IMG/VR virus record: IMGVR_UViG_3300030333_005858
Span: 1 to 31,711 of that record
Source: a virus
Direction: 5' to 3' (one strand)
Length of the DNA: 31,711 bases
Part shown: positions 11,223-30,564 of the stretch, piece by piece
Layout of the letters: every line of letters begins with the position of its first letter
How positions within the stretch are numbered: the stretch's first letter is position 1
Notes under the pieces: generated by a model
Database searches by the model: none
Told to the model about the DNA's origin: nothing
Seen by the model: only the letters and a program-made list of their open reading frames with translations
Made by a program: the position numbers and the translations under genes

Positions 11223-11235
11223 TACATTATACACT
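11223..11235 (-). promoter_or_regulatory. AGTGTAA-type box before tape measure gene
   Basis: AGTGTATAATGTA lies 22 bases upstream of the ATG at 11212 (measured from the GTG). It differs by one base from the boxes at 13032 and 16576. Candidate late promoter. Confidence 0.6.
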
Positions 11236-11239
11236 TTTT

Positions 11240-12232
11240 TTACTTGTCTAATACTTGCATAAGCTCTTTCATGTTCATTTTTCCTCCTTTTTCGCGCAGC
11301 TTTGCTGAAAGCGTGTTTTCTGAAGAACTTTTAAGTCCTAAATATTCATAATCTTCTTTTTTGGCACCAACAATCGTAGACGCCCCGTCCTTATCCATGT
11401 TCTTTAAATTATCTTTGGCTTTTTCTTGGGCGTTAACATAGTCTAATATTTTGTCAGGATCTTGTTTAATTCTATCTGGTATTGCTGTATAGTTTTCAAA
11501 AATGTTCTTAAACATTCTGCTGTATATAACTAATTTTACTTGATTTAAAGAAAGCTCAAAAAGAGGCTTAGAAAACATATTTTGAACGTTTTCGCAAAAA
11601 GCTAAATAAGGTTGGTAAAAATCCTGAAGCGCAACTCTTTGTATTTTATTATCATCAAATGCTGAATAAGCCGTGTTATATAATTTAACAATACTGGTCA
11701 TTTCAGTCCGCCCCATATTATCGACTTCTTTTTCTGAATAATAAGTTTGGGTTAACTGTTTGTCTTTGTATAAAGAGCGAATTATATAATGGTCAGAAAC
11801 TCTTGAATCTGCGTATTTTTCACAAGTTTGACCAAGCAAAGCTGATTTTTGGGCTTCTAATTTGAAAAGCTCTTGTTGTGTCTTTTGTATTTCTTCGTTT
11901 ACTCTATCTATTTCTTTTTTTAGATAAAGTTGTTTTTTTGAAGTTTCAATCTGTTTTAAGTATTCTCTTTTTTGGGCAATTTCAGAATCTTCTTTGTCGC
12001 CCCACATTTCTTCCTCTCGCAGGCGCTCTAAAGCTTCTTTTTGAGTAGGCAGTCCTCTTTTTTCAGCTTTATCGTAATAAATTTTACGAATGTCATCTAT
12101 GTCGACTTGATCAAAAACAGAAAGATGTTTTAAAAAGGCTGGTTTATCGTTGTGAATAATTTGAGACCACCCGAAAACTATGTCTTTAAAAATATGTCTA
12201 AAATTGACATTAACTTGGGTTGTCGATATCAT
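11240..12232 (-). CDS. Putative second tail-assembly chaperone (T-like position)
   Basis: 330 residues, charged and mostly helical, with a coiled coil at about 90-135 (KKQLYLKKEIDRVNEEIQKT). I do not recognise a family. It lies directly upstream of the tape measure, the usual place of the second tail-assembly chaperone (lambda GT, SPP1 17.5*). Its ATG at 12232 overlaps the previous gene by 23 bases in the +1 frame. A TAG stop lies immediately before the ATG in this frame, so a frameshift product could only arise inside the short overlap, where I see no slippery heptamer. Separate initiation or reinitiation is more likely. Chaperone function is inferred from place only. Confidence 0.6.
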   Translation of the reverse strand: MISTTQVNVNFRHIFKDIVFGWSQIIHNDKPAFLKHLSVFDQVDIDDIRKIYYDKAEKRGLPTQKEALERLREEEMWGDKEDSEIAQKREYLKQIETSKKQLYLKKEIDRVNEEIQKTQQELFKLEAQKSALLGQTCEKYADSRVSDHYIIRSLYKDKQLTQTYYSEKEVDNMGRTEMTSIVKLYNTAYSAFDDNKIQRVALQDFYQPYLAFCENVQNMFSKPLFELSLNQVKLVIYSRMFKNIFENYTAIPDRIKQDPDKILDYVNAQEKAKDNLKNMDKDGASTIVGAKKEDYEYLGLKSSSENTLSAKLREKGGKMNMKELMQVLDK

Positions 12233-12977
12233 CTAAAATTTTATCGAAATCTTCTTTGGTCGGGCTGTTACTGAAATACCAATAACTTAATATAGAGGTT
12301 AACTTTCCTGAAGCAGCCGAAAACAGGGAATCTTCTCCTTCGTCTTTTTGATAATAAGAGTCTACTTTACTGTCAAAAGTATCTCCTTCAAAATACTCGA
12401 TTGGCTCGCCATCGTCTTTTTGCGTATACGTTAAATGAGTTAAGTACCATAAAATAATTCTATTTTGCGCTTTAGTATCCGCAGTATGACTAAATAAAGT
12501 TTGGTAAGAAGATTCAAGTGTTACAATGTCGCGTCGACAAATTGCCACTTTAGCTGCCAATTGGTCAATTTGGTCTTTAACCTTTTTTGGAAGCTTTTTT
12601 AAATCTCTATTTGTTAATGTTTTTTTGGTATAATCTCCTTCTAGATCAGCTAATTCAGCATACAAATCAACTAATTTATTTGCATCGCTTTCTGACAATA
12701 AGCCTCCGGTATCAGAATATTTTTTTGCAAGCATTGCTTTTGTTAAAACGCCCTTCTTAATACAGCGGCTCATTTCAATAGAATATTCCATATCTGCTTC
12801 TTCTAGTTCTCTTCGACTAGGATCTTTTAATATAAACTTAACAGGAATTTCTTTTTCTACCGTTTTGGTGACCTCAACTTCTTCCTCTTCGCCTTTTTCA
12901 TTTTTTCGCTTTTCTTTAGTTTTTTCTTGGATTTCCTGTGTATCCTTGACAGTAAATGAATATAATTCTTTGAACAT
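12210..12977 (-). CDS. Putative first tail-assembly chaperone (G-like position)
   Basis: 255 residues and very charged, with a Glu/Lys-rich stretch near residues 17-45. The C-terminal part has NRIILWYLTHLTY and YFEGDTFDSKVDSYY, a pattern I associate with putative tail chaperones of marine phages, though I cannot name a family. It is the first gene of the minus-strand tail operon and precedes the T-like gene and the tape measure, as in the G/GT/H arrangement. Upstream lies a divergent promoter region shared with the plus-strand block; the minus-strand side has a weak AAAAAGTATATATA box about 35 bases from the ATG. No clear Shine-Dalgarno sequence. Confidence 0.6.
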   Translation of the reverse strand: MFKELYSFTVKDTQEIQEKTKEKRKNEKGEEEEVEVTKTVEKEIPVKFILKDPSRRELEEADMEYSIEMSRCIKKGVLTKAMLAKKYSDTGGLLSESDANKLVDLYAELADLEGDYTKKTLTNRDLKKLPKKVKDQIDQLAAKVAICRRDIVTLESSYQTLFSHTADTKAQNRIILWYLTHLTYTQKDDGEPIEYFEGDTFDSKVDSYYQKDEGEDSLFSAASGKLTSILSYWYFSNSPTKEDFDKILDDIDNPS

Positions 12978-13047
12978 AAATCAGTAAAAATAATATTCTA
13001 TATATACTTTTTTTCTAAAGGTTTTTTAAAAAGTGTATAATATAAGC
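12978..13047. promoter_or_regulatory. Divergent promoter region
   Basis: A very AT-rich stretch separates the minus-strand chaperone gene and the plus-strand head closure gene. The plus side has AGTGTATAATATA. The minus side has a looser AAAAAGTATATATA about 35 bases from the chaperone ATG. No terminator is seen. Confidence 0.5.
13032..13044 (+). promoter_or_regulatory. AGTGTATAATATA box before head closure gene
   Basis: AGTGTATAATATA ends three bases before ATG 13048. It is identical to the box at 16576 and holds a TATAAT. It lies in the 70-base divergent region between the tail operon and the plus-strand block. If it acts as a -10 element the transcript would be almost leaderless. Confidence 0.65.
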
Positions 13048-13500
13048 ATGGCTAGTTTAATTTCAGATAGCGAAAAAACCACACTGAATAATGTGATGAG
13101 TGATCAGGCAGATACATTCTCACGTTCTGTAACTATCATAAAAGACCCCACTGTGACCGTTCCATCCCCCAGTTCATCATTTAATTCTATTTACGGAAAC
13201 GCCGGAGCAACAACTTCAGTTACTTATACGGAACAAAGCACTACAATACAGGCAAGAATTGAGTATGGAAGTCAAATGCCAGAAGATTATTTTACTGCCT
13301 CGCAATCTCCAAACCAAATAAAAGTATATATTCCCGAGGGATTAGTTCGAATGAAAATAAAAGCATCAGATTTAGCGACTGTTTCAGAAGCTAAAAGAGT
13401 AGAATTTGATGATCAGAAATTTTCTATTTATAGCGATTTTAGAGGGCACGGACTTTTTGACACTCAATATTATACTGTAATGTTAAAGAAAATAACTTAA
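13048..13500 (+). CDS. Head closure (stopper) protein candidate
   Basis: 150 residues from ATG 13048 (MASLISDSEK). An in-frame GTG at 13033 would add five residues (MYNIS), but it lies inside the AGTGTATAATATA box, so I reject it. The C-terminal half is a small beta-barrel-like region (IKVYIPEGLVRMKIKASDLA, then VEFDDQKFSIYSDFRGHGLF, then YYTVMLKKI). That layout suits siphovirus head-closure proteins such as SPP1 gp16. It is followed with a TAATG overlap by a neck candidate and then by a tail-terminator candidate, which is the standard order for these parts. Function is inferred from fold impression and place. Confidence 0.65.
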   Translation: MASLISDSEKTTLNNVMSDQADTFSRSVTIIKDPTVTVPSPSSSFNSIYGNAGATTSVTYTEQSTTIQARIEYGSQMPEDYFTASQSPNQIKVYIPEGLVRMKIKASDLATVSEAKRVEFDDQKFSIYSDFRGHGLFDTQYYTVMLKKIT

Positions 13501-14102
13501 TGCCAATTCAGATATCCAACAAAGAACTTCAAGCGATTGAAACGAAAATACTTAGAGAAAACTCGTTTAAATCAGCACTTAAAAATATTGTCCAAAAAGA
13601 GTTCGATAAAATACAAAAAGAATTTTTATCTAAATTTGATTCTCATCCTGTAACTGTAGAAATAAATGGAGGAGCTTTAGCTTCAAATACAAGCAAAACA
13701 CTTGGCGGCGTAGGCAATTTATTTACTTATATTGGTTTTGATGCAGGTAGCACCCCTATAAAAAACTTAAGAAAATTGTTGACAGAATATGAAATTCAAT
13801 ATCATACAAGAGGAAATTATGTATCTGTACAAATAACTATACCTACAAAAGAACAAGTTTTTGTAGCAACACCATTGCCATGGGCAACTGGAAGAAGTTG
13901 GGCACGAGGAATAGAGCGAGGCTTGTCTGGCTTAGGGCAATATTTAGTAAAAAGTAAGCGAATTGGTCGTTCGCGTTCAGGTTACGCTATTGAGGTAAAA
14001 AATAAAGTACGCCCCGGAAGATTTACAAATGTTCCTTACATGTCTAGTTTATTAAACGATTATAACAAGAAGCTCAAGGAATTAGAAAAGAAAAGATTTT
14101 AA
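13500..14102 (+). CDS. Neck / HK97 gp10-like head-tail joining protein candidate
   Basis: 200 residues with a helical N-terminus, a middle part with LFTYIGFDAG and VSVQITIPTKEQVFVATPLP, and a very basic C-terminal half (ARGIERGLSGLGQYLVKSKR, ending in KKLKELEKKRF). The mix of a long helix, strands and a basic loop is typical of HK97 gp10-like neck proteins (Ne1), which join the tail to the head. Both ends overlap neighbours as TAATG, so the three genes 13048-14947 probably form one translationally coupled set. Assignment is by order and composition; no catalytic motif is present. Confidence 0.6.
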   Translation: MPIQISNKELQAIETKILRENSFKSALKNIVQKEFDKIQKEFLSKFDSHPVTVEINGGALASNTSKTLGGVGNLFTYIGFDAGSTPIKNLRKLLTEYEIQYHTRGNYVSVQITIPTKEQVFVATPLPWATGRSWARGIERGLSGLGQYLVKSKRIGRSRSGYAIEVKNKVRPGRFTNVPYMSSLLNDYNKKLKELEKKRF

Positions 14103-14947
14103 TGAAGACGCTATATCAACACGAATTACTAAATAGTTTTTATCTTTGGTTTGACAACTTTTTAACCACTAAAGGCGAAGCCTACACGACGTATAGTACT
14201 GATTTTTACTATTATGCTGACGAACGCATACAAAATAAAGTTGTATTTGGATCGCCTTATAAACAGTGGGTTTACGATAAAAACATAACCGCCGCGCAAA
14301 TAAATCCTACTATTAGTGGGGATTCTGGCGCGATCGCAGAAGGCACAAGCGGACTTAAATTTGATTTTGATAATGGTAGAATTTTATTTGATTCAGATTT
14401 TGCCACAGGAACCAATATAAGTGGCACTTATACTGTTAAAGATTTTAACGTTTATATTACTAACCAAACGGAAGAATCGATGATAACTGCCACTAAATAC
14501 AAAAAAAATAGTCGTTATGGCCGCACTCTTACATACGTGCCTCCTTACGATCAAGCTACTCCTGCTGCTTTTCTATCTTTAGGGGCCACAACAAATGAAC
14601 CTTTTGCATTTGGAGGCATGGATAATACGATTACTGATGTAACTGCGGTGGTTTTTGCTGAAAATATTTATCAGCTTGATGGAGCTTTATCAATTATGGC
14701 TGATTCTGCCGAAGTAGTTTTTGGCAACATTCCTTTTACTGGAGCTCCTCTAGATGAATACGGAGATGTTAAATCTGCATATTCAACTGGTTATGACTAT
14801 GCGAATGTAGCATCTAATGATCATTATATAATCAATAAGGTAAATGTTTCTAAAATTTCAGATAGTTCTAACAAGGTAATACCTGTTGATCTTTTCGTTG
14901 GTTTTGTTGATTTTGAAATTTATAAATATAGAACACCAAGAAGTTAA
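14102..14947 (+). CDS. Tail terminator / tail completion candidate
   Basis: 281 residues. The N-terminus has YLWFDNFLTTKGEAYT, then SPYKQWVYDKNI, then SGLKFDFDNGRILFDSD and SGTYTVKDFNVYITNQTEES. I recall this set of short motifs from structural proteins of uncultured marine phages, but without an assigned function. Its position after the neck candidate and before the major tube gene matches the tail terminator (lambda gpU, SPP1 gp17), which caps the tube and meets the head. The start overlaps the preceding stop as TAATG. No membrane segment or enzyme motif. Function is inferred from order. Confidence 0.6.
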   Translation: MKTLYQHELLNSFYLWFDNFLTTKGEAYTTYSTDFYYYADERIQNKVVFGSPYKQWVYDKNITAAQINPTISGDSGAIAEGTSGLKFDFDNGRILFDSDFATGTNISGTYTVKDFNVYITNQTEESMITATKYKKNSRYGRTLTYVPPYDQATPAAFLSLGATTNEPFAFGGMDNTITDVTAVVFAENIYQLDGALSIMADSAEVVFGNIPFTGAPLDEYGDVKSAYSTGYDYANVASNDHYIINKVNVSKISDSSNKVIPVDLFVGFVDFEIYKYRTPRS

Positions 14948-14968
14948 AAGTTCTCAAATTCGAAAAAA

Positions 14969-14980
14969 AGTTGTAAATTA
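14969..14980 (+). promoter_or_regulatory. Weak AGTTGTAA box before major tail tube gene
   Basis: AGTTGTAAATTA is a looser match to the repeated box, 35 bases from ATG 15004. It is bracketed by an imperfect inverted repeat (GTTCTCAAATT at 14950-14960 and AATTTAGAAC at 14986-14995). Confidence 0.35.
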
Positions 14981-15003
14981 TTTTAAATTTAGAACATACT
15001 ATC

Positions 15004-16497
15004 ATGGCTAGAAACAGAGTAATTTATCAAAGTCAGGCGGTCTTTATATCGCCCTCATCCACAGGTTTTCACATGCAAACTGGCAATTTGGACAGCAACC
15101 ATTCTGTCAATGCATGGTATAACATGAATTGGACCGGTACTACCGGTATTATACAACCAGATAGTGCAACTTTTGGTGGCGCTGCTGGTAAGTATGTAAA
15201 TCGTTCCTTAATTGAACCTCTGCACAGAATTCAATCTGCTAACTTTAACTTCACGATTAATCGTCAAGATATTAATGAGTTTGGCAAATTATCTCGCATA
15301 GATTCGATCGTAATGGAATCTCCCACTGTTGGTTTAGATTTTAACTATTATCTAACTGATGGCGGAAATGAACGCAAAATGGGATTCAACGTCCCTACAA
15401 ATAACTCGGGAAGTGCTGGTATAGCACAAGGTGTTGGAAGCCGCGCAGCGAATCAGGCCGCATGGACTGGAGATGGCTGTGTATCAGGCTTTTCTGCTCT
15501 TTCAGGGTTGATCGAAGATACTCAAGGAAATAACTATTTTATTGTTACTTCTAAAGAGGGCACAGACGTTCAAGGAGATGAAGTTACTTCTACAGCGGGC
15601 GATTTTGATGTGATTTCAATCGGAAATGGTTTTATTAGTGATTACAGCATTGATGCTTCTGTTGGAGCTATTCCAACTGCAAGTGTAACTGTTGAAGCAT
15701 TTAATATTCGCGTTGACGATAAAATCTCCGGCGCTATAGACGGAACTGCTCCTGCAGCTACTACCGGAAATCAAATTCCCGGTGTAAACGACACTGATGG
15801 TCAGCAAGTTGCTCACAATTACAATTTTGATGGAGGAACATTGTCAACCACAGGTGATCTCGTAGGACCGCTTTCTACTAACGTAGCCGACAACACTATA
15901 ACTGCATTACGTCCGGGCGATATACTTCTTGAGTTTATTGACCCAGATGAAAATGCTTCACCCACATTCAATACGGATGGTTTCACCGTATTAAGTGGCG
16001 CTGGTAAAGCACATATTCAAAGTTTTGGTGTTTCTGTTCCAATGAGTCGCACGGTTCTTGGAAGACTAGGAAATACTTTTGGATATGCTCGCGTTATCGA
16101 TTTGCCGCTAGATATTAGCATCAGTGTTAATGCTATTGTTTCCGAACTGAGAGCTAACAACTTGTTTGAAAGATTAGCTTCTCCAGAGAAACATGACTTC
16201 CGTTTAACTATGCGTCGTTCTGCTGACACTGGTAAAGCTGGAGCAGATGCGTTTGTCATTGACGTTAAAGGCGCTAGACTCGAAGGAGAAAGTTACAGTA
16301 ACTCAATTGGAGATAATGAAACTGTAGATATTACCTTCTCTACTCAAGTTGGTGGAGCAAACGACCAATCAAACGGTATATTCATGAGAGGATCCTACGA
16401 CAAATGGAGAACTTTACCATATTGGCCGCTAGGAGACGCAAAGAATAAACAAGGTTCTTGGACTGGTACAGGAGGAGTTACTAACAGTATTACCTAA
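15004..16497 (+). CDS. Major tail tube protein (two-domain)
   Basis: 497 residues with an internal duplication of a tube domain. Half one has IQSANFNFTINRQDINEFGK and NGFISDYSIDASVGAIPTAS. Half two has the matching IQSFGVSVPMSRTVLGRLGN and ARLEGESYSNSIGDNETVDI. Phage T5 pb6 has a comparable duplicated tube fold and forms trimeric rings that mimic hexamers, so I infer the same here. Arginine is mostly CGT/CGC and GC content is raised against neighbours, signs of high expression. A strong terminator follows at once (16519-16546). The upstream box (AGTTGTAAATTA) is weaker than elsewhere. A second, diverged copy follows at 16597. Absence of any sheath gene supports a non-contractile tail. Confidence 0.85.
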   Translation: MARNRVIYQSQAVFISPSSTGFHMQTGNLDSNHSVNAWYNMNWTGTTGIIQPDSATFGGAAGKYVNRSLIEPLHRIQSANFNFTINRQDINEFGKLSRIDSIVMESPTVGLDFNYYLTDGGNERKMGFNVPTNNSGSAGIAQGVGSRAANQAAWTGDGCVSGFSALSGLIEDTQGNNYFIVTSKEGTDVQGDEVTSTAGDFDVISIGNGFISDYSIDASVGAIPTASVTVEAFNIRVDDKISGAIDGTAPAATTGNQIPGVNDTDGQQVAHNYNFDGGTLSTTGDLVGPLSTNVADNTITALRPGDILLEFIDPDENASPTFNTDGFTVLSGAGKAHIQSFGVSVPMSRTVLGRLGNTFGYARVIDLPLDISISVNAIVSELRANNLFERLASPEKHDFRLTMRRSADTGKAGADAFVIDVKGARLEGESYSNSIGDNETVDITFSTQVGGANDQSNGIFMRGSYDKWRTLPYWPLGDAKNKQGSWTGTGGVTNSIT

Positions 16498-16518
16498 TTA
16501 ATTATAAATAATTATCAC

Positions 16519-16546
16519 AACCCCGCCTTTCGAGGCGGGGTTTTTT
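16519..16546 (+). terminator. Intrinsic terminator after major tube gene
   Basis: The stem AACCCCGCCT / AGGCGGGGTT has a TTCG tetraloop and is followed by a T run. It lies 22 bases after the stop at 16497. It separates the two tube genes. Confidence 0.92.
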
Positions 16547-16575
16547 ATTAATTGTTAGTGAATTTAAGATAATAA

Positions 16576-16588
16576 AGTGTATAATATA
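16576..16588 (+). promoter_or_regulatory. AGTGTATAATATA box before second tube gene
   Basis: This is a perfect copy of the box at 13032, 20 bases before ATG 16597 and 30 bases after the terminator. It gives the second tube gene its own transcription start. Confidence 0.65.
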
Positions 16589-16596
16589 TAAAACAA

Positions 16597-18201
16597 ATGG
16601 CTGGCAGAAATAGAGTAATTTATCAAAGTGAAGGCTTGTACATATCACCTTCTTCTACAGGCTATCATATGCAGTCTGGACAAGGAAAAGTTGATACAAC
16701 TAGCGGCCCCGGACAATGGATATATGGCTTAAATCTTTCTGAAGATGCTGCATACGGCAGTGGAGCTTTAAGGTGGAGCGGATGTATGGATCCAGCGACA
16801 GGACAAGTTCCATCTGGATTTGACGCTGCAACATCAGGCCCATATGGTCCAAGCGGTTCAATTTATCGTTCTCTGCTAGAGCCATTAGATCGCGTTCAAA
16901 CAATAAACTTTGATTTCTCTATTAATCGACAAGACATTAATCAATTCGGTAGGCTTGCTCGCTTAGATTCGATTGTGATGGAATCTCCAACAGTTAATTT
17001 AAGTTTCGATTATTATTTAACAGATGGAGCAAATGAAAGAAAAATGGGCTTTAATGTTCCTACTAGCTGGGGAGTTGGTACCGATTTTAGGCCTTCATCT
17101 GCAGGATATTGGACTGGAGATTTAGCTGTTTCTGGACATAGTGCACTATCTGGACTGATAGAAGATACAGTAGGTAATAATTATTTTATTTTAGTCGGAA
17201 AAGAGGGTAAGGATTTAGAGAATGACCCTATTACTGCTTATGTAGATAAGCCATTTTCCGAAACTGATTTTGACACTATTAGTATAGGCAATGGTTTTAT
17301 AAGCGATTATAATATAGACGCATCTGTAGGAGCCATTCCGACTGCCTCAGTATCTATCGAAGGATTTAATATAAAAACTGATAATAGAGCGTCAGGAAGC
17401 ACTACTTCACATGCCAATGTGGATTCAACTAGTAATCCTCTGAGTTCGGGCAATGGCCTTAATTTTCCAGCAATCCCTGCAGTGGATCAAACAAATGGAG
17501 TGACAGGTATTCAATTGCAAGACTCGGCCGCTTTTGCTAACAGCCCTAGCTGGTCTGCTAATGGAACCCCATTGCCTCGTTACACAAGATTTAGCGTACC
17601 AACATATGATACTGGAAGTGCCGACATGGCTGCTTTGCGTCCCGGAGATATAACTTTCGAAATGACTAACTCTGGTGATTATGATGGATTTACTGATATG
17701 GATGGTGATGGTCAAGCTCATCTGCAAAGCATGAGTATTAATGTGCCAATGAGTAGAACAATATTACAAAGACTTGGCAATACTTTTGGTTATAGTAGAG
17801 TAGTAGATTTGCCTTTAGATGTAAGCGTTAACCTTTCAGCAGTTGTTTCAGAACTGAATAAAAATGACTTGTTTGAAAAACTATCTTCTCCTCAAACACA
17901 TAATTTTAAATTAACTCTAAAGGAAGCTAATTCTGATACAGGCACTCCTAGTCAAACTGCAATGGTTTTTGAAGTAAAAAATGCTAGATTAGATAGTGAA
18001 AGCTTTAGTAATGCAATAGGAGATAATGAAACAGTTGATATGAGTTTTTCAACTCAAATAGGCGGATCTAACGATACCGATAATGGCTTATTTATGGAGG
18101 GTAGTTATTTTAGATTTACTACTTTGAACTATTACCCAATGGGTAAAAATAAGACAAAAGATGGCGCTTATAAAGGAACTCCTCCGAGTTACGAAAGCTA
18201 A
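16597..18201 (+). CDS. Second tail tube paralogue (two-domain)
   Basis: 534 residues, clearly a paralogue of the protein at 15004. Both start RNRVIYQS..., then ISPSSTG.HMQ.G, and share FSINRQDINQFG, SIVMESPTV, YYLTDGANERKMGFNVP, NGFISDYNIDASVGAIPTAS, PMSRTILQRLGNTFGYSRVV and SFSNAIGDNETVDMSFSTQI. The loop regions differ most and this copy is longer between the halves. Arginine codons include many AGA, unlike the first copy, so it is probably made at lower level. It has its own perfect AGTGTATAATATA box 20 bases upstream, after the terminator. Likely a minor tube ring, tail-tip-proximal tube or decorated variant of the tube; which one cannot be told. It ends two bases before a convergent gene. 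Confidence 0.85.
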   Translation: MAGRNRVIYQSEGLYISPSSTGYHMQSGQGKVDTTSGPGQWIYGLNLSEDAAYGSGALRWSGCMDPATGQVPSGFDAATSGPYGPSGSIYRSLLEPLDRVQTINFDFSINRQDINQFGRLARLDSIVMESPTVNLSFDYYLTDGANERKMGFNVPTSWGVGTDFRPSSAGYWTGDLAVSGHSALSGLIEDTVGNNYFILVGKEGKDLENDPITAYVDKPFSETDFDTISIGNGFISDYNIDASVGAIPTASVSIEGFNIKTDNRASGSTTSHANVDSTSNPLSSGNGLNFPAIPAVDQTNGVTGIQLQDSAAFANSPSWSANGTPLPRYTRFSVPTYDTGSADMAALRPGDITFEMTNSGDYDGFTDMDGDGQAHLQSMSINVPMSRTILQRLGNTFGYSRVVDLPLDVSVNLSAVVSELNKNDLFEKLSSPQTHNFKLTLKEANSDTGTPSQTAMVFEVKNARLDSESFSNAIGDNETVDMSFSTQIGGSNDTDNGLFMEGSYFRFTTLNYYPMGKNKTKDGAYKGTPPSYES

Positions 18202-18203
18202 AA

Positions 18204-18767
18204 TTAATAGCCTACTCGACCTCTATAATCATAAGCTGAGTATATATCGCCGCTAGCGTCCACAGAAGCGTCTGTACCAGCAACTTGAACTGGCTGGGCA
18301 TCATATATATTATACTTTGCTACAAGCATATCTAGACGCTCTTGTGCGTCTTTAGCGAAACCTCTGTAAGTCTTGGCTATTTCATTTTTATTCGTTCGCG
18401 TGATCATTGAATCGCCTTCACGAAGAGATATAAAATCTACTGAACTATCAATGCCTTTCAGTACAGCTCTAGCTTTTTTTGTATAATAATTAGTAAGATA
18501 AATTTGTTTATAAATATCAGCTTCTTCAAATCTAAATCTTCCAGAAGGGGAAAGAATCGTGTCGCCCGGATACTCAGAATCATCACTAGCGGCACCTGAA
18601 CCTGAGTATGCTGTGTAAAGCTGAGTATTTAAAAGTCCTACATTGTTGGCTAGCCAGCCAGAAATAGAAGATAATGTAGAAAAACCTGTATCAGAATCAA
18701 ATTCGTCATTAAAGATTCCGGTGGCTATAGTGCTAACTAAATAAGGTGTTTTTGACCTGTCTGGCAT
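18204..18767 (-). CDS. Head-tail connector (adaptor) candidate
   Basis: 187 residues. The segment SISGWLANNVGLLNTQLYTA followed by FRFEEADIYKQIYLTNYYTK and helices DAQERLDMLVAKYN is a pattern I associate with head-tail connector proteins of marine phages downstream of the capsid gene. Small helical connectors (SPP1 gp15 / HK97 gp6 group) dock on the portal. It is the last gene of the minus-strand head cluster and has an AGTGTAAATATAT box right before its ATG. It converges on the tube gene at 16597 with a two-base gap and no visible terminator between them. Confidence 0.6.
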   Translation of the reverse strand: MPDRSKTPYLVSTIATGIFNDEFDSDTGFSTLSSISGWLANNVGLLNTQLYTAYSGSGAASDDSEYPGDTILSPSGRFRFEEADIYKQIYLTNYYTKKARAVLKGIDSSVDFISLREGDSMITRTNKNEIAKTYRGFAKDAQERLDMLVAKYNIYDAQPVQVAGTDASVDASGDIYSAYDYRGRVGY

Positions 18768-18770
18768 ACA

Positions 18771-18783
18771 ATATATTTACACT
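18771..18783 (-). promoter_or_regulatory. AGTGTAA-type box before connector gene
   Basis: AGTGTAAATATAT lies immediately before the ATG at 18767, with the GTG 15 bases upstream. Same family as the other boxes. Confidence 0.55.
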
Positions 18784-18788
18784 AAAAA

Positions 18789-19217
18789 TCAAAAACCTTC
18801 GCTCATTAATTTTTTAGCTTTTTCATGATTTGGATGATTTGGGTCATGAATTGCCAAAGGCTCTTCCATTGAAATTGTACGTGCGCCACGAGTAACACGT
18901 TTAAATTCTTGACGTAATTTGTCTTTTAAACGCGGCAATGTTCCATCTGGAAAGATACCAATCTTCATGGCTAAACTTTGTAAATCGCTTAAATTAGAGT
19001 CTTTCAGTTTGTTTTCAAATATGTTAGGATCGTTGGTGCCAAAAGGATTGACCTCTTTAATTCCTAAAACTTCCTCAAGCTTTTTAACTTTTTCTATAGT
19101 GTCATCTTCTATTCTACCAGTGGTAAAATTTTGTATATCTTCAAGGTCTGTCTTCTTTTTAGAAGCCTTAGAGGATTCCTTTGTTGCCGCTTTTGATGTT
19201 TTCTTTTTCGCTGCCAT
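18789..19217 (-). CDS. Small basic protein with SAP-like segment, downstream of capsid gene
   Basis: 142 residues. Residues 2-22 are almost only Lys, Ala, Ser and Thr, like a flexible nucleic-acid-binding tail. A helical acidic stretch follows. Residues 76-108 (LSDLQSLAMKIGIFPDGTLP, then RLKDKLRQEFKR) resemble a SAP/HeH-type helix-extension-helix, which binds DNA in other proteins. It lies between the capsid gene, from which it is cut off by a terminator, and the connector candidate, and it has its own AGTTGTAATATATT box. A minor head or DNA-end-associated protein is possible; I do not recognise a family with certainty. Confidence 0.6.
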   Translation of the reverse strand: MAAKKKTSKAATKESSKASKKKTDLEDIQNFTTGRIEDDTIEKVKKLEEVLGIKEVNPFGTNDPNIFENKLKDSNLSDLQSLAMKIGIFPDGTLPRLKDKLRQEFKRVTRGARTISMEEPLAIHDPNHPNHEKAKKLMSEGF

Positions 19218-19220
19218 GAT

Positions 19221-19234
19221 AATATATTACAACT
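19221..19234 (-). promoter_or_regulatory. AGTTGTAA-type box before basic protein gene
   Basis: AGTTGTAATATATT is followed three bases on by the ATG at 19217. It lies just beyond the capsid terminator, so it would restart transcription for the last two head genes. Confidence 0.55.
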
Positions 19235-19250: not shown

Positions 19251-19283
19251 AAAAAAAAACTCCGCCTCTTTCGAGGCGGAGTT
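19251..19283 (-). terminator. Intrinsic terminator after major capsid gene
   Basis: On the minus strand the stem AACTCCGCCTC / GAGGCGGAGTT has a GAAA loop and is followed by nine T. It begins 18 bases after the capsid stop. Its core resembles the terminator at 16519-16546. Confidence 0.93.
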
Positions 19284-20441: not shown

Positions 20442-20453
20442 ATTAATTAAATA

Positions 20454-20459
20454 TCCTTT
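20454..20459 (-). promoter_or_regulatory. Ribosome binding site of capsid gene
   Basis: AAAGGA lies 12 bases upstream of the ATG at 20441. It is one of few clear Shine-Dalgarno sequences in a window where most starts are translationally coupled or box-linked. Confidence 0.6.
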
Positions 20460-20473
20460 CTTTAGTTAAATGA

Positions 20474-21153: not shown

Positions 21154-21876
21154 TTAATAGGTTATTGAAATGTTTTCGGTATTAAAAGCCTTTCTGAACT
21201 GATCAGATAAGGACTCTTCCGTGGAAGAAGCTTCGTTATTATTAGCGATGCTAGAATGTGGAACCTCAACATTTTCCACAACTTCCTCTACACTCTCTTG
21301 AGATTCAGAAACAGTCTCTGTAGCGACAGCTACCTCTTCCTGAGAAGAAGCTAAACGCTTTTCAAGCTCTTCCTGAACCTTTGCCTCAAATTGTTTTTCT
21401 TGTTCCATTTTAAAAGCTTTGCTTTTATGTTGAAGTAAAGAAGCCAATTTGCCTTGATAACTTTCAAAAGCTTCATCAGAAGCCTCTAAAGTCTTTACTT
21501 CATTCGCCAAAACCGTGCGGTCTTGATCGGAAAGGTCGTAAAGCTCATCGATGGCTTCCATGCGACTATTGAATAGCTGTTCTGCCGCAGCAGCGTTAAT
21601 GGAAGATTCTAATGAAGTAATTTTCTCATTAGCTTCTTCCAACTTCTTATGAAGATCTTCCATTGAAGCTTTAGCTTCACTTGCATCTTTCTCGGCTTGA
21701 GCCTTCTCAGCCTCAATAGCCTCTCTCTCAGCACGAAACTCTGCATCTTTTTCACGAATCTTTTCAGCTACGTGAAGAGCTACATTAGCTACGGCTTCCT
21801 GAGTGAATTCAGCATTGTCCGCTAACTTCGAATCGAGTACCTTCTCGAACTCGGTTTTGAACTCTGTAATATCCAT
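21154..21876 (-). CDS. Possible nested scaffold product (internal start)
   Basis: In-frame ATG at 21876 (Met283 of the fusion) would give a 240-residue scaffold without protease, as lambda Nu3 is made from inside C. Upstream is ACTGTAAAAAACAATAATA (21879-21897), similar to the TGTAA..ATTATA boxes in front of other genes here. GC content rises sharply at this point, from about 20 percent over 21901-21960 to about 45 percent over 21781-21840, which suggests selection for high expression starting there. No Shine-Dalgarno sequence is present. This is a proposal, not an established gene. Confidence 0.4.
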   Translation of the reverse strand: MDITEFKTEFEKVLDSKLADNAEFTQEAVANVALHVAEKIREKDAEFRAEREAIEAEKAQAEKDASEAKASMEDLHKKLEEANEKITSLESSINAAAAEQLFNSRMEAIDELYDLSDQDRTVLANEVKTLEASDEAFESYQGKLASLLQHKSKAFKMEQEKQFEAKVQEELEKRLASSQEEVAVATETVSESQESVEEVVENVEVPHSSIANNNEASSTEESLSDQFRKAFNTENISITY

Positions 21877-22722: not shown

Positions 22723-22741
22723 ATTATAATAAAGTTACACG
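22723..22741 (-). promoter_or_regulatory. GTGTAA..ATTATA box before protease-scaffold gene
   Basis: CGTGTAACTTTATTATAAT directly abuts the ATG at 22722 and nearly fills the 22-base gap after the portal gene. Confidence 0.55.
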
Positions 22742-22744: not shown

Positions 22745-24787
22745 TTATTTCTTGAGAGAATTTTTTCTGCTATGATGCAAAATCGCTGCGGCGTAGTCAT
22801 CTAGCTCATGTTCCGCGCTAATTTCTAGAACTGGCTCCATAGGTGATAACTTAATTAATTTGTCGGGATTTTGAATGCACGCTTTACCAGTGGATAACCA
22901 ATCTTTTTGGTCTTTGGCTACCACGACTGATTCGCATACCCTCTCTAACATTTCTTTTTGATTTTTATTTAAACGCTTCTTTTTGAATATTTTTTTAGCT
23001 TCGCTTGTTAAAGAAACATATAATTCGTTAGTTTTATCAGCTATATTTTTAATATCTAAAACTGAATAACATTCTTTGGCTAGAGTTTTTGATCCGGCTG
23101 GTCTCCCCGGATTCGAAGCGCTACGAGCTCTGTTACTTTGCTGATTATTTTGTTGAACAATCTTTGCGCTTTGAGGGTGCTTTATTTCTTCAAGCTCCTC
23201 CTCTTCTTCAAAAGTCATTGGAACTGGAGCCCCACCTACAATTGGATTATAATAACCCTTTAACCTATCTTCGACAAATTTTTCTTGAGACTTTTCAAGC
23301 TCACTAGCACTTGGGAATACGCCGGTCTCTATTACTTTAATTCCTTCATTTGGAGGAAGAATTCCCAACTCCATCATACGAGTGATTGTGCGTTGAACTT
23401 GAGTTTGATCTTGTAAATCTATAGTTTCAAATTTTGCTACAGGTGCACTTTTAAAACCGTAATTTTTACAAATTTCTTTGATCTCTGGTTGCAGAAAGTT
23501 GTTTAAGAATGCATCTCTAGATTCTTTTAGTCTTTGCAAAAACATCTGAGCTTTTATTTCGGTGCTAGCAAACTTTTCTTGATTTAAAATAATATTCTGC
23601 AAGCCTTCTTTAATATCTTGGTTTACCACCTCATATTTAGCTGGCCCGATAACTTTTTGAATATCAGGAATAATAAATTCTGCTTTTGTAGTATAGTCAC
23701 TTACCAAAATACGTCCCACGCTTTGATTTTGAAAAAGCGATTGCATAGCTCTGATATTTCTAGGGTTTACGCCTCCTTTGTCTGGAGTAGTACCCATTGT
23801 AATCATTAAAACAACATTCTCAATGGTTCTGCATATTGATTGATCAATTTTTTTCATTTCCATTTTGAACTCAATATCGTCAAGAACAGCAAATCCAAAC
23901 GGAACTGCAAAAGGCTCATAATCTTGTTTTTTATAGAAGGCGTATTTTAATTTTTTGGGATCCAATTGTACTTTTAGCCCATTTAAAGCCCAAGAATCAT
24001 TTTTAATTTTATTCTTAATTTCAGGGTCAAGGGCATCATACAACTCTCTATCTTCATCAGTTTTTGGATTTTTAAGTCGCTCTGCTTCATATTCGCTAAG
24101 AACTTTTGCATACAAACCTACATCAAATGAAGTTGCTCTTTTTGCCACAATGTCAAATGGATTTAAAAGTAAATATCTGACTGGCAATTTATTAGTTTTG
24201 AGCGTAAGACCAAAATTTCTAACTTTAGAAAAATCCTCTACATTGATTTTACCCTCAATTGTATATAAAAACACATTGCCGCTTCTGTAAAACTCTCTAA
24301 AAAATTGATCTTTTAGATTCCAAATTTTAATTTTTTTGAGCCAAGCATTAATAAATGCTCTAGACTTTGCATTTCCTCCCTCTAGATATAATGTTGAGTT
24401 AGCAAAATCTGCCATCATGTCAACAGCATTTCTAAAAACAGATATATTCGCATAAGCTTTTTGCGTTAACTCTATTGCATCTCGCACATTTACGCCATCT
24501 AAGCCATATTCGTACGGAAGCATTCCGGCCCTAATATTATTATATTTAAAAAGCTTTGGAGCTATTGCAATATTATTTCTGCGAGTAGTCGTAGTTGTGC
24601 TAGGCCCACCTGCTCGACTATATGCTTTTGATTCATAATTGTAAAATGATTCTCCGATCAACTCTGGTTGATAGTTGCTGGTGCTTGCATTCGATAGACC
24701 TAAAGGATCTTGAAAAGATTGTTCATGCTTTTCTTTGAATTTATTCCAATAATCTGATCTTTTTGTATATTTACGTTTTTCGGCCAT
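22745..24787 (-). CDS. Portal protein
   Basis: 680 residues. The order of parts fits a portal: a disordered N-terminus, a clip/wing region (FFREFYRSGNVFLYTIEGKI near 162-181), a stem and helical crown with KKIDQSICRTIENVVLMITM (about 312-331), and a C-terminal helix region. It forms the twelve-subunit ring through which the terminase pumps DNA. It has a C-terminal extension from about residue 530, with an acidic stretch, a Gln/Asn-rich stretch, the AT-hook-like NPGRPAGSK (559-567) and a basic helical part, longer than compact portals. It follows the large terminase gene after 53 bases that hold a box (24788-24806) and tandem palindromes. Confidence 0.9.
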   Translation of the reverse strand: MAEKRKYTKRSDYWNKFKEKHEQSFQDPLGLSNASTSNYQPELIGESFYNYESKAYSRAGGPSTTTTTRRNNIAIAPKLFKYNNIRAGMLPYEYGLDGVNVRDAIELTQKAYANISVFRNAVDMMADFANSTLYLEGGNAKSRAFINAWLKKIKIWNLKDQFFREFYRSGNVFLYTIEGKINVEDFSKVRNFGLTLKTNKLPVRYLLLNPFDIVAKRATSFDVGLYAKVLSEYEAERLKNPKTDEDRELYDALDPEIKNKIKNDSWALNGLKVQLDPKKLKYAFYKKQDYEPFAVPFGFAVLDDIEFKMEMKKIDQSICRTIENVVLMITMGTTPDKGGVNPRNIRAMQSLFQNQSVGRILVSDYTTKAEFIIPDIQKVIGPAKYEVVNQDIKEGLQNIILNQEKFASTEIKAQMFLQRLKESRDAFLNNFLQPEIKEICKNYGFKSAPVAKFETIDLQDQTQVQRTITRMMELGILPPNEGIKVIETGVFPSASELEKSQEKFVEDRLKGYYNPIVGGAPVPMTFEEEEELEEIKHPQSAKIVQQNNQQSNRARSASNPGRPAGSKTLAKECYSVLDIKNIADKTNELYVSLTSEAKKIFKKKRLNKNQKEMLERVCESVVVAKDQKDWLSTGKACIQNPDKLIKLSPMEPVLEISAEHELDDYAAAILHHSRKNSLKK

Positions 24788-24806
24788 GTTATAATAGGTT
24801 ACACTT
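24788..24806 (-). promoter_or_regulatory. AGTGTAA..ATTATA box before portal gene
   Basis: AAGTGTAACCTATTATAAC directly abuts the ATG at 24787. It is close in layout to the box before the protease-scaffold gene. Confidence 0.6.
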
Positions 24807-24838
24807 AAAGTTTTAAAAGTGACTTTTAAAGTTACTTT
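24803..24838. repeat. Three tandem AAGT/ACTT palindromes
   Basis: ACTTAAAGT (24803-24811), AAAAGTGACTTTT (24815-24827) and AAAGTTACTTT (24828-24838) each have inverted arms around one base. They lie between the large terminase stop and the portal box, and the first overlaps the box. They could be an operator or a weak RNA structure. Confidence 0.55.
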
Positions 24839-24840
24839 CT

Positions 24841-26706: not shown

Positions 26707-27649
26707 CTTTTTTACAATCCCAAAAGTATTGCATGTCTGTTCTCCATATGTCTTTACCGTGAATTAAAATTCTAGGAATAATTCTAGAAGCATTAGCTCT
26801 ATTATCTACAAAAATAAATTGGCAGCATCTTGGGAAATCATGACATAATTCTTTTACTCTACGTAAAGTAAAATCTATATTGCTTTTGCGATTAAATATC
26901 TTATTTTCTTTTATCATTTTTTCTATACTAGACTCCACAACTACAAATAAATAAGAATCCATTTCTTGAGCTCTTTGTATTTCGCGGCGGAATCTTTCAA
27001 TATTGTTTTTGCCTACTGTGCCTTGTAAATCATTTCCAGATTTTCTATCTACAAAAGTATAATTGTAATATTTCCCTAAAGTGGTATAGTCTCCTATATC
27101 AAGTTTTAAAATTTCATTTTGGCACCCCTCAAACTCTAAAGGCTTTTGCTCCCTAGTATCAATTGCAATAGTTAAATCTGAAGGGATTTTTTTAGTAAAA
27201 AAATCTTTAGGTAAATTTTTATCAAATAATGGTTCGCAACCAATTTCTTGACATACGGCATTGTAACTTCCAAAAAATTTTTTATATATAGAGACTGAAG
27301 GCAAAAAAGAATTTTTTGTTTCTAAATGAAAAGGCCCATATTCTCTTTGTTTTTTAGAGTGCCTTTTTTTGAGCAAGTTTATAATATATTCTTTCACTTC
27401 TTCGGTGGGCTTTTCTTTGCACCATTTTAGAAGCTGCTGTTTTGTGGAAAAATCTCTTTCAAAGTACTCCTCGTATCTTTTAAAAGGAAGGGGGTCGCCT
27501 GTTAATTTATTCTGTCGTGGAAAATATTTTGTATAGTAAGATGCTAAATTTAAATCGTGCTGTTTAATGTGTTTATGTAAAGAAGCCCTGCTTGCAAATT
27601 CTTTGCCGCACTCTGCACAGGTAAAAACTTTGGATATTACCTCTTCCAT
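26693..27649 (-). CDS. C2H2 zinc finger - ERCC4-type nuclease
   Basis: 318 residues. The N-terminus is a classical C2H2 finger: Cys11, Cys14, His27, His31 (CAECGKEFAS, then HKHIKQH). A linker of about 120 residues follows. The C-terminal part is an ERCC4/XPF-like nuclease: IAIDTREQ (Asp164), then GDYTT (Asp187), then VDRKSGNDL (Asp201, Arg202, Lys203, Asp207). That matches the family signature GDXnERKX3D with Asp in place of Glu. Known family members cut branched or flap DNA. It starts as TAATG in the previous stop and overlaps the large terminase gene by 14 bases. An HNH nuclease often sits beside terminase genes in phages; this may fill that role or resolve replicated DNA before packaging. 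Function beyond nuclease is inferred. Confidence 0.85.
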   Translation of the reverse strand: MEEVISKVFTCAECGKEFASRASLHKHIKQHDLNLASYYTKYFPRQNKLTGDPLPFKRYEEYFERDFSTKQQLLKWCKEKPTEEVKEYIINLLKKRHSKKQREYGPFHLETKNSFLPSVSIYKKFFGSYNAVCQEIGCEPLFDKNLPKDFFTKKIPSDLTIAIDTREQKPLEFEGCQNEILKLDIGDYTTLGKYYNYTFVDRKSGNDLQGTVGKNNIERFRREIQRAQEMDSYLFVVVESSIEKMIKENKIFNRKSNIDFTLRRVKELCHDFPRCCQFIFVDNRANASRIIPRILIHGKDIWRTDMQYFWDCKKDELA

Positions 27650-28719
27650 TATATTGCATCCTGTTTACTAATTCCTAATACTCTAGCTTTCCAGTCAGAC
27701 ATTTTTTCTACTTCGTCAGCCTCTTTCCTTATAGCCTGTTTTTGCATTTCGGCCATTTTTATCATTAACTTTCTTTCATTCTCATCTTGAAAAAGTTGAA
27801 CCAGCGAAAGAATAGAAGCGTTTCTCTGCTGTTGATTAGCTACTCTTTTTGCTCTTTCTCCATTTAATTTGGCTAGCATTTTATCTATTCGATTAGTGCA
27901 TTGATTGTATTCTTCAGCTTTTGTTTTTAACATTTCTGTAAGTCGCATAGTCAAATCATTTTGCCCTTCGGTGTCATCAAACATTAAATTTAATTTTTGC
28001 TTCTGTTGTTCTATCTCTTTTAGGTTGACATAGTCCATGCATACGTTTATATATAAATTTAATTCATCTGAAGTTAAATCTGGTTTGTCCCAAGTGCTTC
28101 TGATATACTCTGACTCAAACAGTTCTCTGTTTTGTCGAGTTATATAAGAATTTATAACTTGTAAAAATCTTGGTGCGCTTAAATAAGATATTAATTTTTC
28201 CACGCACTTTTTATCTTGAATGTTTAACTTATCAATCTCGAATTCTTTGGCGGCGACCTTATTAAGCTTTTTTAGTGCGGTTGAAATAATTTTAGGTGCA
28301 GTGTATTTTTCTCCTGCAGCATCATCGCGCAAACTTACAGACGAAGGAAACTCTTTGTTTATGTAATCGCATAAAGCTACAAATTTATCAGTTTCGCCGA
28401 ACCCTTTACTTTCAGCATCTTTAGGCCACAGTAATTGACCTACTTCTAATTTTGTCATTTCGGGGCAATAATGCTGTTTTATAAATGACTTTTCATCGTC
28501 AGATAAAAAATGCTTGACAACCCTTTTTTTAACTTTAGTTCTATAGCTTAAACCTTTCTCTACCCAATACTTTCTTAAAGCTCTACCTCTGACTGTGCTA
28601 CCTTTTTCATTCTCATCATCAAATAGTTTTTTTGTAGCAGCACTTAAATCTCCGTTAAGCTCCTCAAATAACTGAAGGCTTTTTTCTTTTTCTTCTTTTG
28701 ATAGTGAGTACTCTTTCAT
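27649..28719 (-). CDS. Putative terminase small subunit or DNA-binding packaging protein
   Basis: 356 residues, strongly helical and charged. The N-terminus (LSKEEKEKSLQLFEELNGDL, then GRALRKYWVEKG) looks like a small helix-turn-helix. Residues 230-345 form coiled coils (LKEIEQQKQKLNLMF, then RLTEMLKTKAEEYNQ). DNA-binding followed by an oligomerising coiled coil is the layout of many small terminases. The order DNA-binding protein - nuclease - large terminase also fits. It overlaps the sigma-like gene as ATGA at 28716-28719 and its stop overlaps the next start as TAATG. I do not recognise a named family, so the packaging role is a proposal. Confidence 0.55.
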   Translation of the reverse strand: MKEYSLSKEEKEKSLQLFEELNGDLSAATKKLFDDENEKGSTVRGRALRKYWVEKGLSYRTKVKKRVVKHFLSDDEKSFIKQHYCPEMTKLEVGQLLWPKDAESKGFGETDKFVALCDYINKEFPSSVSLRDDAAGEKYTAPKIISTALKKLNKVAAKEFEIDKLNIQDKKCVEKLISYLSAPRFLQVINSYITRQNRELFESEYIRSTWDKPDLTSDELNLYINVCMDYVNLKEIEQQKQKLNLMFDDTEGQNDLTMRLTEMLKTKAEEYNQCTNRIDKMLAKLNGERAKRVANQQQRNASILSLVQLFQDENERKLMIKMAEMQKQAIRKEADEVEKMSDWKARVLGISKQDAI

Positions 28720-29435
28720 TCAAAAAATATATCAGTTTCATTGCATATTTTTTTAGCTATCTTCTTGTAGAAGTTTTTTAAATTTTTAATTTGCTTGTAT
28801 CCGGCTTTTCTCCCCTTTTCATTACTCTTGTAGCCTAAAACTTTTGCCACCACTTCTTCGTCGATATGATCGATGAATAACATCTTGTATATTATGTAAT
28901 GACGATCATTAAGATACTGCCTCATCAAAAGATGCAATGATTTAACTGCACCGTTTATACTATAATGATCTTCAGGCAATGTATAACGGTCAAAAGGATT
29001 AGTTTCTAGCGATACAGGAATCTTAATGTCATAAGCCTGCTTACGAGTTTTATACCATTTTGCATAATCAGGACATTCATCAGATTGCAGGCCGCTTTGA
29101 GTAAAAGAGCACAAATTTGCAATTTGTCCTTGACCTTGCTCTTTTGATTGATTATGTTTACAGCTGATGCATGGTCTGGCAAAATTTGAATAATTATTAC
29201 GAAGAATATTTTTTAACTGATTAGATATAATCTTATTTACCCATGGCTCTATTGGGCGAGACTGATCCCACTGCTCCCATTTATTGTAAATATGGGTTCT
29301 AATAATTTGAGATACATCGTCAAAGTCAAGCCATGCTAACGCATGTAAATGCCACTTATAGTAGCGCTTTCTTATCTCATTATCGATAATCTCAAATTTA
29401 TCTTCGTAGGTATGTTTTTTATCCGTCGCCACCAC
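28716..29435 (-). CDS. Sigma-like RNA polymerase factor with embedded zinc site
   Basis: I choose GTG 29435 (239 residues): GAGGAAG lies six bases upstream (29442-29448) and the overlap with the previous gene is then 17 bases. The frame is open up to TTG 29504, which would add 23 residues. In the 239-residue numbering, residues 24-82 look like sigma region 2 (WHLHALAWLDFDDVSQII, then PWVNKIISNQLKNILRN). Next comes a Cys4 insert (Cys89, Cys92, Cys109, Cys121). Residues 172-227 look like region 4 with a helix-turn-helix (DEEVVAKVLGYKS, then GRKAGYKQIKNLK). T4 gp55 is a comparable, smaller late sigma factor. The likely target is the AGTGTAA box found in this window. It overlaps the following gene as ATGA. 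Confidence 0.75.
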   Translation of the reverse strand: MVATDKKHTYEDKFEIIDNEIRKRYYKWHLHALAWLDFDDVSQIIRTHIYNKWEQWDQSRPIEPWVNKIISNQLKNILRNNYSNFARPCISCKHNQSKEQGQGQIANLCSFTQSGLQSDECPDYAKWYKTRKQAYDIKIPVSLETNPFDRYTLPEDHYSINGAVKSLHLLMRQYLNDRHYIIYKMLFIDHIDEEVVAKVLGYKSNEKGRKAGYKQIKNLKNFYKKIAKKICNETDIFFE

Positions 29436-29814
29436 CGCCAACTTCCTCAGATCTTCCACGAGAAGAGCCACATTCTGATTGGGAAATTTTAGTGAATTCT
29501 TCAATTGTCATTTTTTTGAAGTTTTCATTAGCTTCAGTATTGTAAGATAATTCATCAGGATTCAAAGGGTTATTAACTAACGTCTCTAAAGTTACTTTTG
29601 ATTTAGGTAAATCAATATCATATTCTAATTTAGAAATATTAGGAATCGAATCTTCACTATTTCTCCCATTCGTTGCTGCCAGACTAGGTTTAGACACAGA
29701 AGCGCTTGCCATTCCAAACGCCGCAAATGTTTCCCCACAGCTTTGGCAGAAGTTGGGTTTCTTTAAAGTGTAACTATTTTTAGCTCCACACTCAGGACAA
29801 AATATACTAGCCAT
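29419..29814 (-). CDS. Small zinc-ribbon protein
   Basis: 131 residues. The N-terminus is a zinc ribbon with CPEC (Cys6, Cys9) and CQSC (Cys23, Cys26). The rest is low in recognisable features: a Ser/Ala-rich linker, then IEEFTKISQSE and a C-terminal tail of Gly, Arg, Glu and Ser. Its last bases overlap the sigma-like gene and it follows phoH after ten bases, so it is part of the same transcript. Small zinc-ribbon proteins can modulate transcription or bind nucleic acid; no function can be assigned from sequence alone. Confidence 0.75.
   Translation of the reverse strand: MASIFCPECGAKNSYTLKKPNFCQSCGETFAAFGMASASVSKPSLAATNGRNSEDSIPNISKLEYDIDLPKSKVTLETLVNNPLNPDELSYNTEANENFKKMTIEEFTKISQSECGSSRGRSEEVGGGGDG
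29442..29448 (-). promoter_or_regulatory. Ribosome binding site deciding the sigma-like start
   Basis: GAGGAAG lies six bases upstream of GTG 29435. It supports this start over the upstream TTG at 29504. Confidence 0.6.
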
Positions 29815-29824
29815 TTTTTATAAT

Positions 29825-30547
29825 TTATTTTACAGGGTTATTTTCTAATTTATTTACAATAAATTTTAATATTTCGCTACGAACAATATCTTCATCTGTA
29901 AAACGAAAAGTATAGATTCCTTGCTCTTTAGATTCTTCATTATCAAATATTTCCATAATCGGAGCAAATCCAGTTTTTCCATTTATATCAGATTGCATCG
30001 GATCGCCACATATAAAGTACTTGGAATTCTCACCTATTCTTGTTATCAAGGTTACCAGCTCTTTCCTTGTAAAGTTTTGAGACTCGTCTGCGATAATGAG
30101 TTTATTAGCCCAGCTAGCACCCCTTAAATAATTTATTGGGGCGCACTGTATGATGTTTTCTTCTATAAGCATTTTTATTTGATCTTTTTCCAAAAGCTCT
30201 TCAAGTTTATCTTGAAGCGGCATCATGAAAGGATGAAATTTTTCATCTACATCTCCCGGCAAGCTGCCTAAATTCTTTTCTCCACTTTCTGCTATTGTTC
30301 TAACATAAAAAACATCTTGGTTCATATTCATGTTAAAAAGCTGTAAAGCCGCATAAATAGAAACAAAAGTTTTCGAAGACCCTGCTGGCCCTGAAACAAA
30401 AATTATTTTTGTATTTTTATCAAAAGCTATTTTTAAGAACTCATGTTGCTTTTTTGTTAACTCAAAATTTTTCAGATAAAGCTTGTACTTATTTTCATTT
30501 AATGCTATTATCTTTTCCGACGCTGAAGACTTCTTCCGTCTGCTCAT
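29825..30547 (-). CDS. phoH: PhoH-like ATPase
   Basis: 240 residues, one P-loop domain of the PhoH family. Walker A is GPAGSSKT (53-60; usual form GPAGTGKT, so Ser replaces the Gly before Lys). The family motif VRTIAESGEKNLGSLPGD is at 82-99 and Walker B is IIADESQN (Asp154, Glu155). CGDPMQSD at 180-187 is the sensor-type segment. PhoH is very common in marine phages, but its phage role is not settled; RNA metabolism or phosphate-stress adaptation have been proposed. It is the first gene of the minus-strand cluster and has a clear AAGTGTAATATTATG box just upstream. Its DNA context is divergent from the glycosyltransferase gene. Confidence 0.92.
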   Translation of the reverse strand: MSRRKKSSASEKIIALNENKYKLYLKNFELTKKQHEFLKIAFDKNTKIIFVSGPAGSSKTFVSIYAALQLFNMNMNQDVFYVRTIAESGEKNLGSLPGDVDEKFHPFMMPLQDKLEELLEKDQIKMLIEENIIQCAPINYLRGASWANKLIIADESQNFTRKELVTLITRIGENSKYFICGDPMQSDINGKTGFAPIMEIFDNEESKEQGIYTFRFTDEDIVRSEILKFIVNKLENNPVK

Positions 30548-30564
30548 TACATAATATTACACTT
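30548..30564 (-). promoter_or_regulatory. AGTGTAA box before phoH
   Basis: AAGTGTAATATTATGTA directly abuts the ATG at 30547. It heads the long minus-strand head and packaging cluster. Confidence 0.6.

Follow-up and report, generated by a model that had tools for sequence, protein, structure and literature searches.

Introduction

The late promoter of phage T4, TATAAATA, is a −10-only element that is read by a small phage sigma factor, gp55. The gp36-dependent middle/late promoters of phiEco32 have the consensus tAATGTAtA (PMC8948821, PMC4331800), with start sites 6–8 bp downstream of it (PMC8948821), and the gp47-dependent late promoters of phage 7-11 follow GTAAtg-(16)-aCTA (PMC8948821). 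Leaderless bacterial genes have TANNNT ∼12 bp ahead of their start codons (PMC3160421), and the jumbo phage AR9 has its own multisubunit polymerases and leaders of 26–491 nt (PMC5312081). Here we describe a short box with a GTGTA core that stands just upstream of start codons in a 31.7-kb fragment (31,711 nt; hereafter the window) of an uncultivated tailed phage, virus record IMGVR_UViG_3300030333_005858; the window carries genes for a tape-measure protein, a terminase, PhoH, an ERCC4-type nuclease and a glycosyltransferase. We read the box as a leaderless single-element late promoter used by the phage's own sigma factor in an uncultivated marine lineage, and put the probability of this reading at about 0.8.

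Single-element late promoters served by a phage sigma factor are a known kind; the motif, the sigma lineage and the leaderless layout are new, and our literature search, which reached few subscription papers, brought up no published phage promoter with GTGTAA. The likeness to phiEco32 lies in a phage sigma factor (whose use is predicted here) working with the host core polymerase, and in a single element with a TGTA core and no −35 element. The first bases differ, however (AATGTAtA there, (A)GTGTA[A/T]W here), those phiEco32 sites that precede genes lie ∼20–47 nt from the ATG with a Shine-Dalgarno sequence in between (our measurement), and gp36 is without region 4 (PMC8948821), whereas the protein described below has a C-terminal helix-turn-helix (HTH)-like segment and a four-cysteine insertion. 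Phage 7-11 also places late structural genes under a phage sigma factor, but its promoter is bipartite and no second element is seen here. The T4 element lies 22–36 nt before late ATGs, with a Shine-Dalgarno sequence in between as measured here; it shows no enrichment before starts in this lineage, in agreement with the initial annotation, which had set the box apart from it, and a comparison of the gp55 profile with the sigma factor of the lineage was negative. The early promoter class described below, with TAnnnT at −12, fits the definition of leaderless bacterial genes (PMC3160421) exactly, although those lie in host chromosomes and here a phage is concerned, which has in addition a second, non-sigma70 promoter registered alike. 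AR9 resembles the lineage in being a large phage whose early and late promoters have different consensus sequences.

Boxes in the window

The initial annotation had placed an AGTGTAA/TATTAT box 15–22 nt before eight starts on both strands, and a box is indeed present, at that spacing, at all eight places (Table 1). Seven copies have the GTGTA core and the eighth is a variant, GTTGTAA, in whose place the orthologues of another subclade read GTGTATACTATTAT. By type there are three AGTGTAA, three AGTGTAT, one CGTGTAA and one GTTGTAA, so that of the original wording the GTGTA core stands, the full AGTGTAA applies to three of eight copies, and TATTAT, considered as a second half-site, is not conserved and reflects A/T-richness only. 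The copies at 13032 and 16576 share 15 identical bases (AAAGTGTATAATATA) and the copy at 11223 differs from them by one, as had been described. For the gene behind the box at 13033, the start codon is ATG 13048 rather than GTG 13033.

Over the whole window exact AGTGTAA is not enriched (six found versus 4.45 expected), so it is position that carries the signal: the window has 20 GTGTA[AT] sites, and seven of these lie at −22 to −12 of the 25 starts, where 0.087 would be expected (binomial P = 2e-12). An additional box, at 3583 on the minus strand, lies 43 nt ahead of a gene, within the upstream coding sequence. Two of the boxes, at 16577 and 19233, stand directly behind intrinsic terminators, as expected of a promoter that restarts transcription; these two terminators are the strongest in the scanned stretch, in which terminator-like sites as a whole are no more frequent than expected by chance.

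Table 1. Positions of boxes, terminators and associated features in the window
Feature	Position	Strand	G of core	Context
Box GTGTATAATGTAG	11222..11234	−	11234	22 nt before tape-measure gene (4481–11212); 14/15 orthologues have a box at ≤60 nt
Box GTGTATAATATAA	13033..13045	+	13033	15 nt before gene 13048–13500; 14/14 orthologues, at 14–17 nt
Intrinsic terminator	16519..16542	+		Directly upstream of box 16577; 10 pairs, 7 G-C
Box GTGTATAATATAT	16577..16589	+	16577	20 nt before gene 16597–18201; strong intrinsic terminator ends ∼35 nt upstream
Box GTGTAAATATATT	18770..18782	−	18782	15 nt before gene 18204–18767; kept in 14/18 orthologues
Variant box GTTGTAATATATTA	19220..19233	−	19233 (GTTGTAA)	16 nt before gene 18789–19217; terminator just upstream
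Intrinsic terminator	19258..19283	−		Directly upstream of box 19233; 11 pairs, 7 G-C
Box GTGTAACTTTATT	22728..22740	−	22740	18 nt before gene 21154–22722; 26/26 orthologues
Box GTGTAACCTATTA	24792..24804	−	24804	17 nt before portal-like gene (22745–24787); 33/33 orthologues, at 14–23 nt
Gene for a putative divergent ECF-like sigma factor	28716..29435	−		Invariant insertion with four cysteines; suggested to read the box; position of the start codon uncertain
Box GTGTAATATTATG	30550..30562	−	30562	15 nt before phoH (29825–30547); 33/33 orthologues
Sigma70-type promoter TTGACT-N16-TAAAAT	30563..30590	+		Divergent glycosyltransferase gene (30602–31705)

Conservation among related contigs

Scanning viral contigs with the terminase identified 592 relatives, and 80 of them were retained; the main comparative set consists of 35 related contigs (878 kb, 785 starts). 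These contigs are fragments, and the relatives' genes were called by a simple longest-open-reading-frame script. GTGTAA ranks first of all 4096 hexamers upstream of starts in this set (154 occurrences versus 6.9 expected), a count that includes non-independent loci and is more safely read per gene family (34 families with a box). GTGTA[AT] reaches a density of 17.3/kb at −24 to −12, versus 0.21/kb in sense and 0.31/kb in antisense coding sequence, and the control words GTGAT[AT] and GATGTA[AT] show no enrichment at the same positions in the 35 contigs. The corresponding densities in the window are 22/kb versus 0.13/kb (sense) and 0.26/kb (antisense); the box is thus far rarer inside genes than before starts, whereas the initial annotation would have taken equal frequencies as a refutation.

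Alignments of orthologous upstream regions retain the core AGTGTAA while neighbouring bases vary, down to 35–50% protein identity. In a logo built from one site per gene family, the G is preceded by A in 68% of the sites and GTGTA is followed by eight positions nearly devoid of G and C, giving the core consensus (A)GTGTA[A/T] and about seven further A/T; no −35-like element is seen upstream of the box in the logos of either the window's clade or the large genomes. The box is retained before every orthologue of the portal-like gene, of phoH and of genes 21154–22722 and 13048–13500, and before all but one of those of the tape-measure gene (Table 1). The portal assignment itself comes from weak similarity to portals of Bacillus phages. 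Genes started by overlap are without it, as the initial annotation had held: terL (0/34), gene 27649–28719 (0/33), the sigma gene (0/33), and genes 11240–12232, 12210–12977, 13500–14102 and 14102–14947 (0/14 each).

Named matches to the lineage are only to binned contigs of mixed taxa, among them two labelled Halobacteriovorax (L231) and Flavobacteriaceae (L232), with sigma genes 57% and about 40% identical, respectively. Both contigs have GTGTA boxes with the ATG at 14–15 nt; they are likely to be phage contigs in bins and give weak hints about the host. No cultured relatives were found for the sigma gene or the major capsid candidate, and only weak matches for terL and the portal-like gene.

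Two promoter classes in the large relatives

A scan with the sigma profile yielded contigs of 184–205 kb whose sigma factors are 51–57% identical, and three of these (G020, G021 and G023) were analysed for promoters. GTGTAA ranks first upstream of starts in each of the three separately, and in 29 genes its first base lies exactly 14 nt ahead of the start codon. The same register is found when no gene calls are used: among 182 GTGTAWW sites an ATG follows at offset 14 in 31 and at offset 15 in 12, with typically 2–5 at other offsets. Among all hexamer-by-position combinations the top three are CTTGAC at 36, TTGACA at 35 and GTGTAA at 14, two of which belong to a second, sigma70-type promoter: of 654 genes, 50 have TTGAC with its first base exactly 35 nt ahead of the ATG, TAnnnT peaks at −12, and of 148 TTGAC-N18-TAnnnT sites, again without gene calls, 49 have an ATG at +1 and 24 have it one base later. 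A pyrimidine is favoured at −1 in both classes.

The two classes serve different genes. Strict early-type promoters precede genes for DnaB helicase, DNA ligase, UvdE nuclease, NrdB, rIIB, a RuvB-like/clamp-loader ATPase, a DNA polymerase fragment and a dNMP kinase, and none of the 47 strict early genes has a box; the box precedes genes for tail sheath, minor tail, tape-measure and portal proteins. Virion genes are thus found on the box and other genes on host-type promoters, the exceptions being NrdA and a Lon-like protease. From gene function and promoter type, the box class is very likely the late class.

The separation bears on the possibility that the host's primary sigma factor, with no phage sigma factor involved, recognizes the box as an extended −10 element. 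Three window copies do contain TATAAT (GTGTATAAT), and TGTAAT is one base away from it. Sigma70, however, needs the key A at −11, and most copies in the relatives are without TATAAT and have G at that position; only A/T-richness is kept around the core, there is no −35 element, and the same genomes hold a separate TTGAC/TAnnnT class with a canonical −35 whose strict members are never boxed. We regard recognition by the host sigma factor as unlikely.

A candidate sigma factor

The box is most probably read, judging from sequence and predicted structure, by the product of gene 28716–29435, a divergent putative sigma factor resembling those of the extracytoplasmic function (ECF) group. The gene belongs to a run headed by the phoH box (phoH, a zinc ribbon gene, the sigma gene, gene 27649–28719, the ERCC4 nuclease gene and terL), and its run starts with this box in 33/33 contigs. 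Eighteen of 19 contigs carry it; the remaining one ends just beyond terL on that side, so that the place of the sigma gene is cut off. Sigma70_r2 is detected in 22/22 members, with weak individual scores (that of the window copy does not reach the Pfam cut-off), and region 4 in one of 22 (E = 0.047); a helical HTH-like segment near the C-terminus is conserved (GRKAGYKQIKNLK). The top fold matches of the predicted structure are ECF sigma factors (E = 1.2e-3, probability 1.0; 8.5e-3 for a second model, in which region 2 of sigma E is aligned at 2.6 Å over 79 columns). No match to the protein was found among 50,697 cultured-phage records, and a search of PDB sequences with the sigma profile returned nothing meaningful. 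Between the two sigma-like domains lies an invariant insertion, CxxC...C...C, which perhaps binds zinc.

A single compact element near the predicted start site would also suit a phage-encoded RNA polymerase as the reader. No RNA polymerase beta subunit was found in five large contigs, in a search whose control worked (the search for single-subunit enzymes was uninformative, its control being silent), and the sigma-like gene is present throughout; a phage polymerase in its stead is very improbable.

Leaders and Shine-Dalgarno sequences

Shine-Dalgarno-like motifs occur in 13% of random 14-mers inside genes, which serves as the baseline. In the window's clade such motifs are found in 0/80 genes with the box at 12–16 nt, in 4/88 with the box at 17–23 nt and in 15/48 with the box at 24–60 nt; in the larger relatives the corresponding figures are 4/54, 0/26 and 11/25. 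Genes with a near box thus have rates of 0–7%, versus 10–15% for the early class and 13% for random positions. Leaders with room for a Shine-Dalgarno sequence often have one and short leaders have none, as predicted by a promoter at variable distance, and the box is almost certainly a promoter rather than a ribosome signal. The initial annotation had left room for an element that combines a promoter with an initiation signal; if the latter is taken to be a ribosome-binding motif, this is not favoured. That the box is an RNA element recruiting ribosomes in place of a Shine-Dalgarno sequence, as its closeness to the start codon and the lack of that sequence in the same genes might suggest, is scarcely credible, because coupled genes also need initiation and yet have no box, its distance from the ATG varies from 12 to 56 nt across orthologues, Shine-Dalgarno-like motifs return where it is farther away, and two copies directly follow terminators.

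Proposed mechanism and its weight

Our preferred reading remains a late promoter served by a phage sigma factor. It is supported by the lock on orientation and distance, the retention of the box before units mainly of virion genes, the terminators upstream of two copies, the clade-wide sigma gene and the separate sigma70-type class. The host core RNA polymerase with the ECF-like sigma factor would recognize the box as a −10-like element with no −35. Where the G of the box is at −14/−15 relative to the A of the start codon, transcription would begin on this codon or within a few nucleotides of it (the phiEco32 spacing of 6–8 bp, applied to GTGTAA at −14, puts the start on the ATG), and late mRNAs would be leaderless or have leaders of ∼0–8 nt. 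Early genes would use a sigma70-type TTGACA-N17-TATAAT promoter in the same registration. Because the gene run of the sigma factor starts at the boxed phoH, positive feedback on its production is likely. As one of two alternatives, the initial annotation had suggested that the box is a late promoter of a new type, with transcripts that are leaderless or almost so, and the comparative evidence supports this; the exact start sites and leaderless translation are predicted with good confidence.

Several points weigh against the proposal. The sigma factor is linked to the box by co-occurrence and operon position, and every sufficiently complete contig has both; its structural model is moderate (predicted template modelling score 0.43–0.45), no Foldseek match passes E = 1e-3, and homology with T4 gp55 or phiEco32 gp36, which was considered, gave no profile match. 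Some units are box-free, such as that of the major capsid candidate (0/22), and have an A/G-rich Shine-Dalgarno-like stretch instead, and the box class is not purely structural, given NrdA and the Lon-like protease. Registration is looser in the window's own subclade, with boxes mostly 14–22 nt from the ATG: box leaders there are often 2–8 nt and early leaders ∼3–5 nt long.

In the large relatives both temporal classes appear, as far as the promoter registers indicate, to be leaderless, and we think it somewhat more probable than the converse that a widespread marine lineage with contigs of ∼200 kb runs its early and late programmes largely on leaderless mRNAs, from two unrelated promoters registered to the start codon. 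If so, registration of both at the level of single bases would imply that AUG-first initiation is selected for, and perhaps that the virus shifts the mode of translation. If confirmed, the lineage would offer a strong case of a phage whose early and late units are mostly leaderless, and a natural test system for ribosome starts on AUG-first messages during infection. The transcription map becomes readable from sequence (the box marking a late unit and TTGAC/TAnnnT an early one), so that timing is predictable for hundreds of contigs, and a divergent cysteine-containing sigma family is added with a clear predicted target site.

Other conserved intergenic features

The phoH box, on the minus strand, abuts the TTGACT −35 element of the opposing glycosyltransferase promoter (window 30548–30601), an arrangement shared by nearly all of the relatives that were compared. 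The promoters should exclude each other, and the 54-bp gap between phoH and the glycosyltransferase gene could act as a switch between early and late expression.

A palindromic stretch, AAGTAACTTTAAAAGTCACTTT, lies between the start of terL and the portal box region (window 24805–24840) and is conserved in nearly all relatives shown. Upstream of the major capsid candidate, which is boxed in none of 22 relatives, the conserved A/G-rich stretch reads GAAAGGA (window 20442–20473) and is Shine-Dalgarno-like. Another long conserved stretch, AAAAGTTGTAAATTATTTTAAATTTA (window 14966–15003), is found ∼34 nt before gene 15004–16497 and is not a canonical box.

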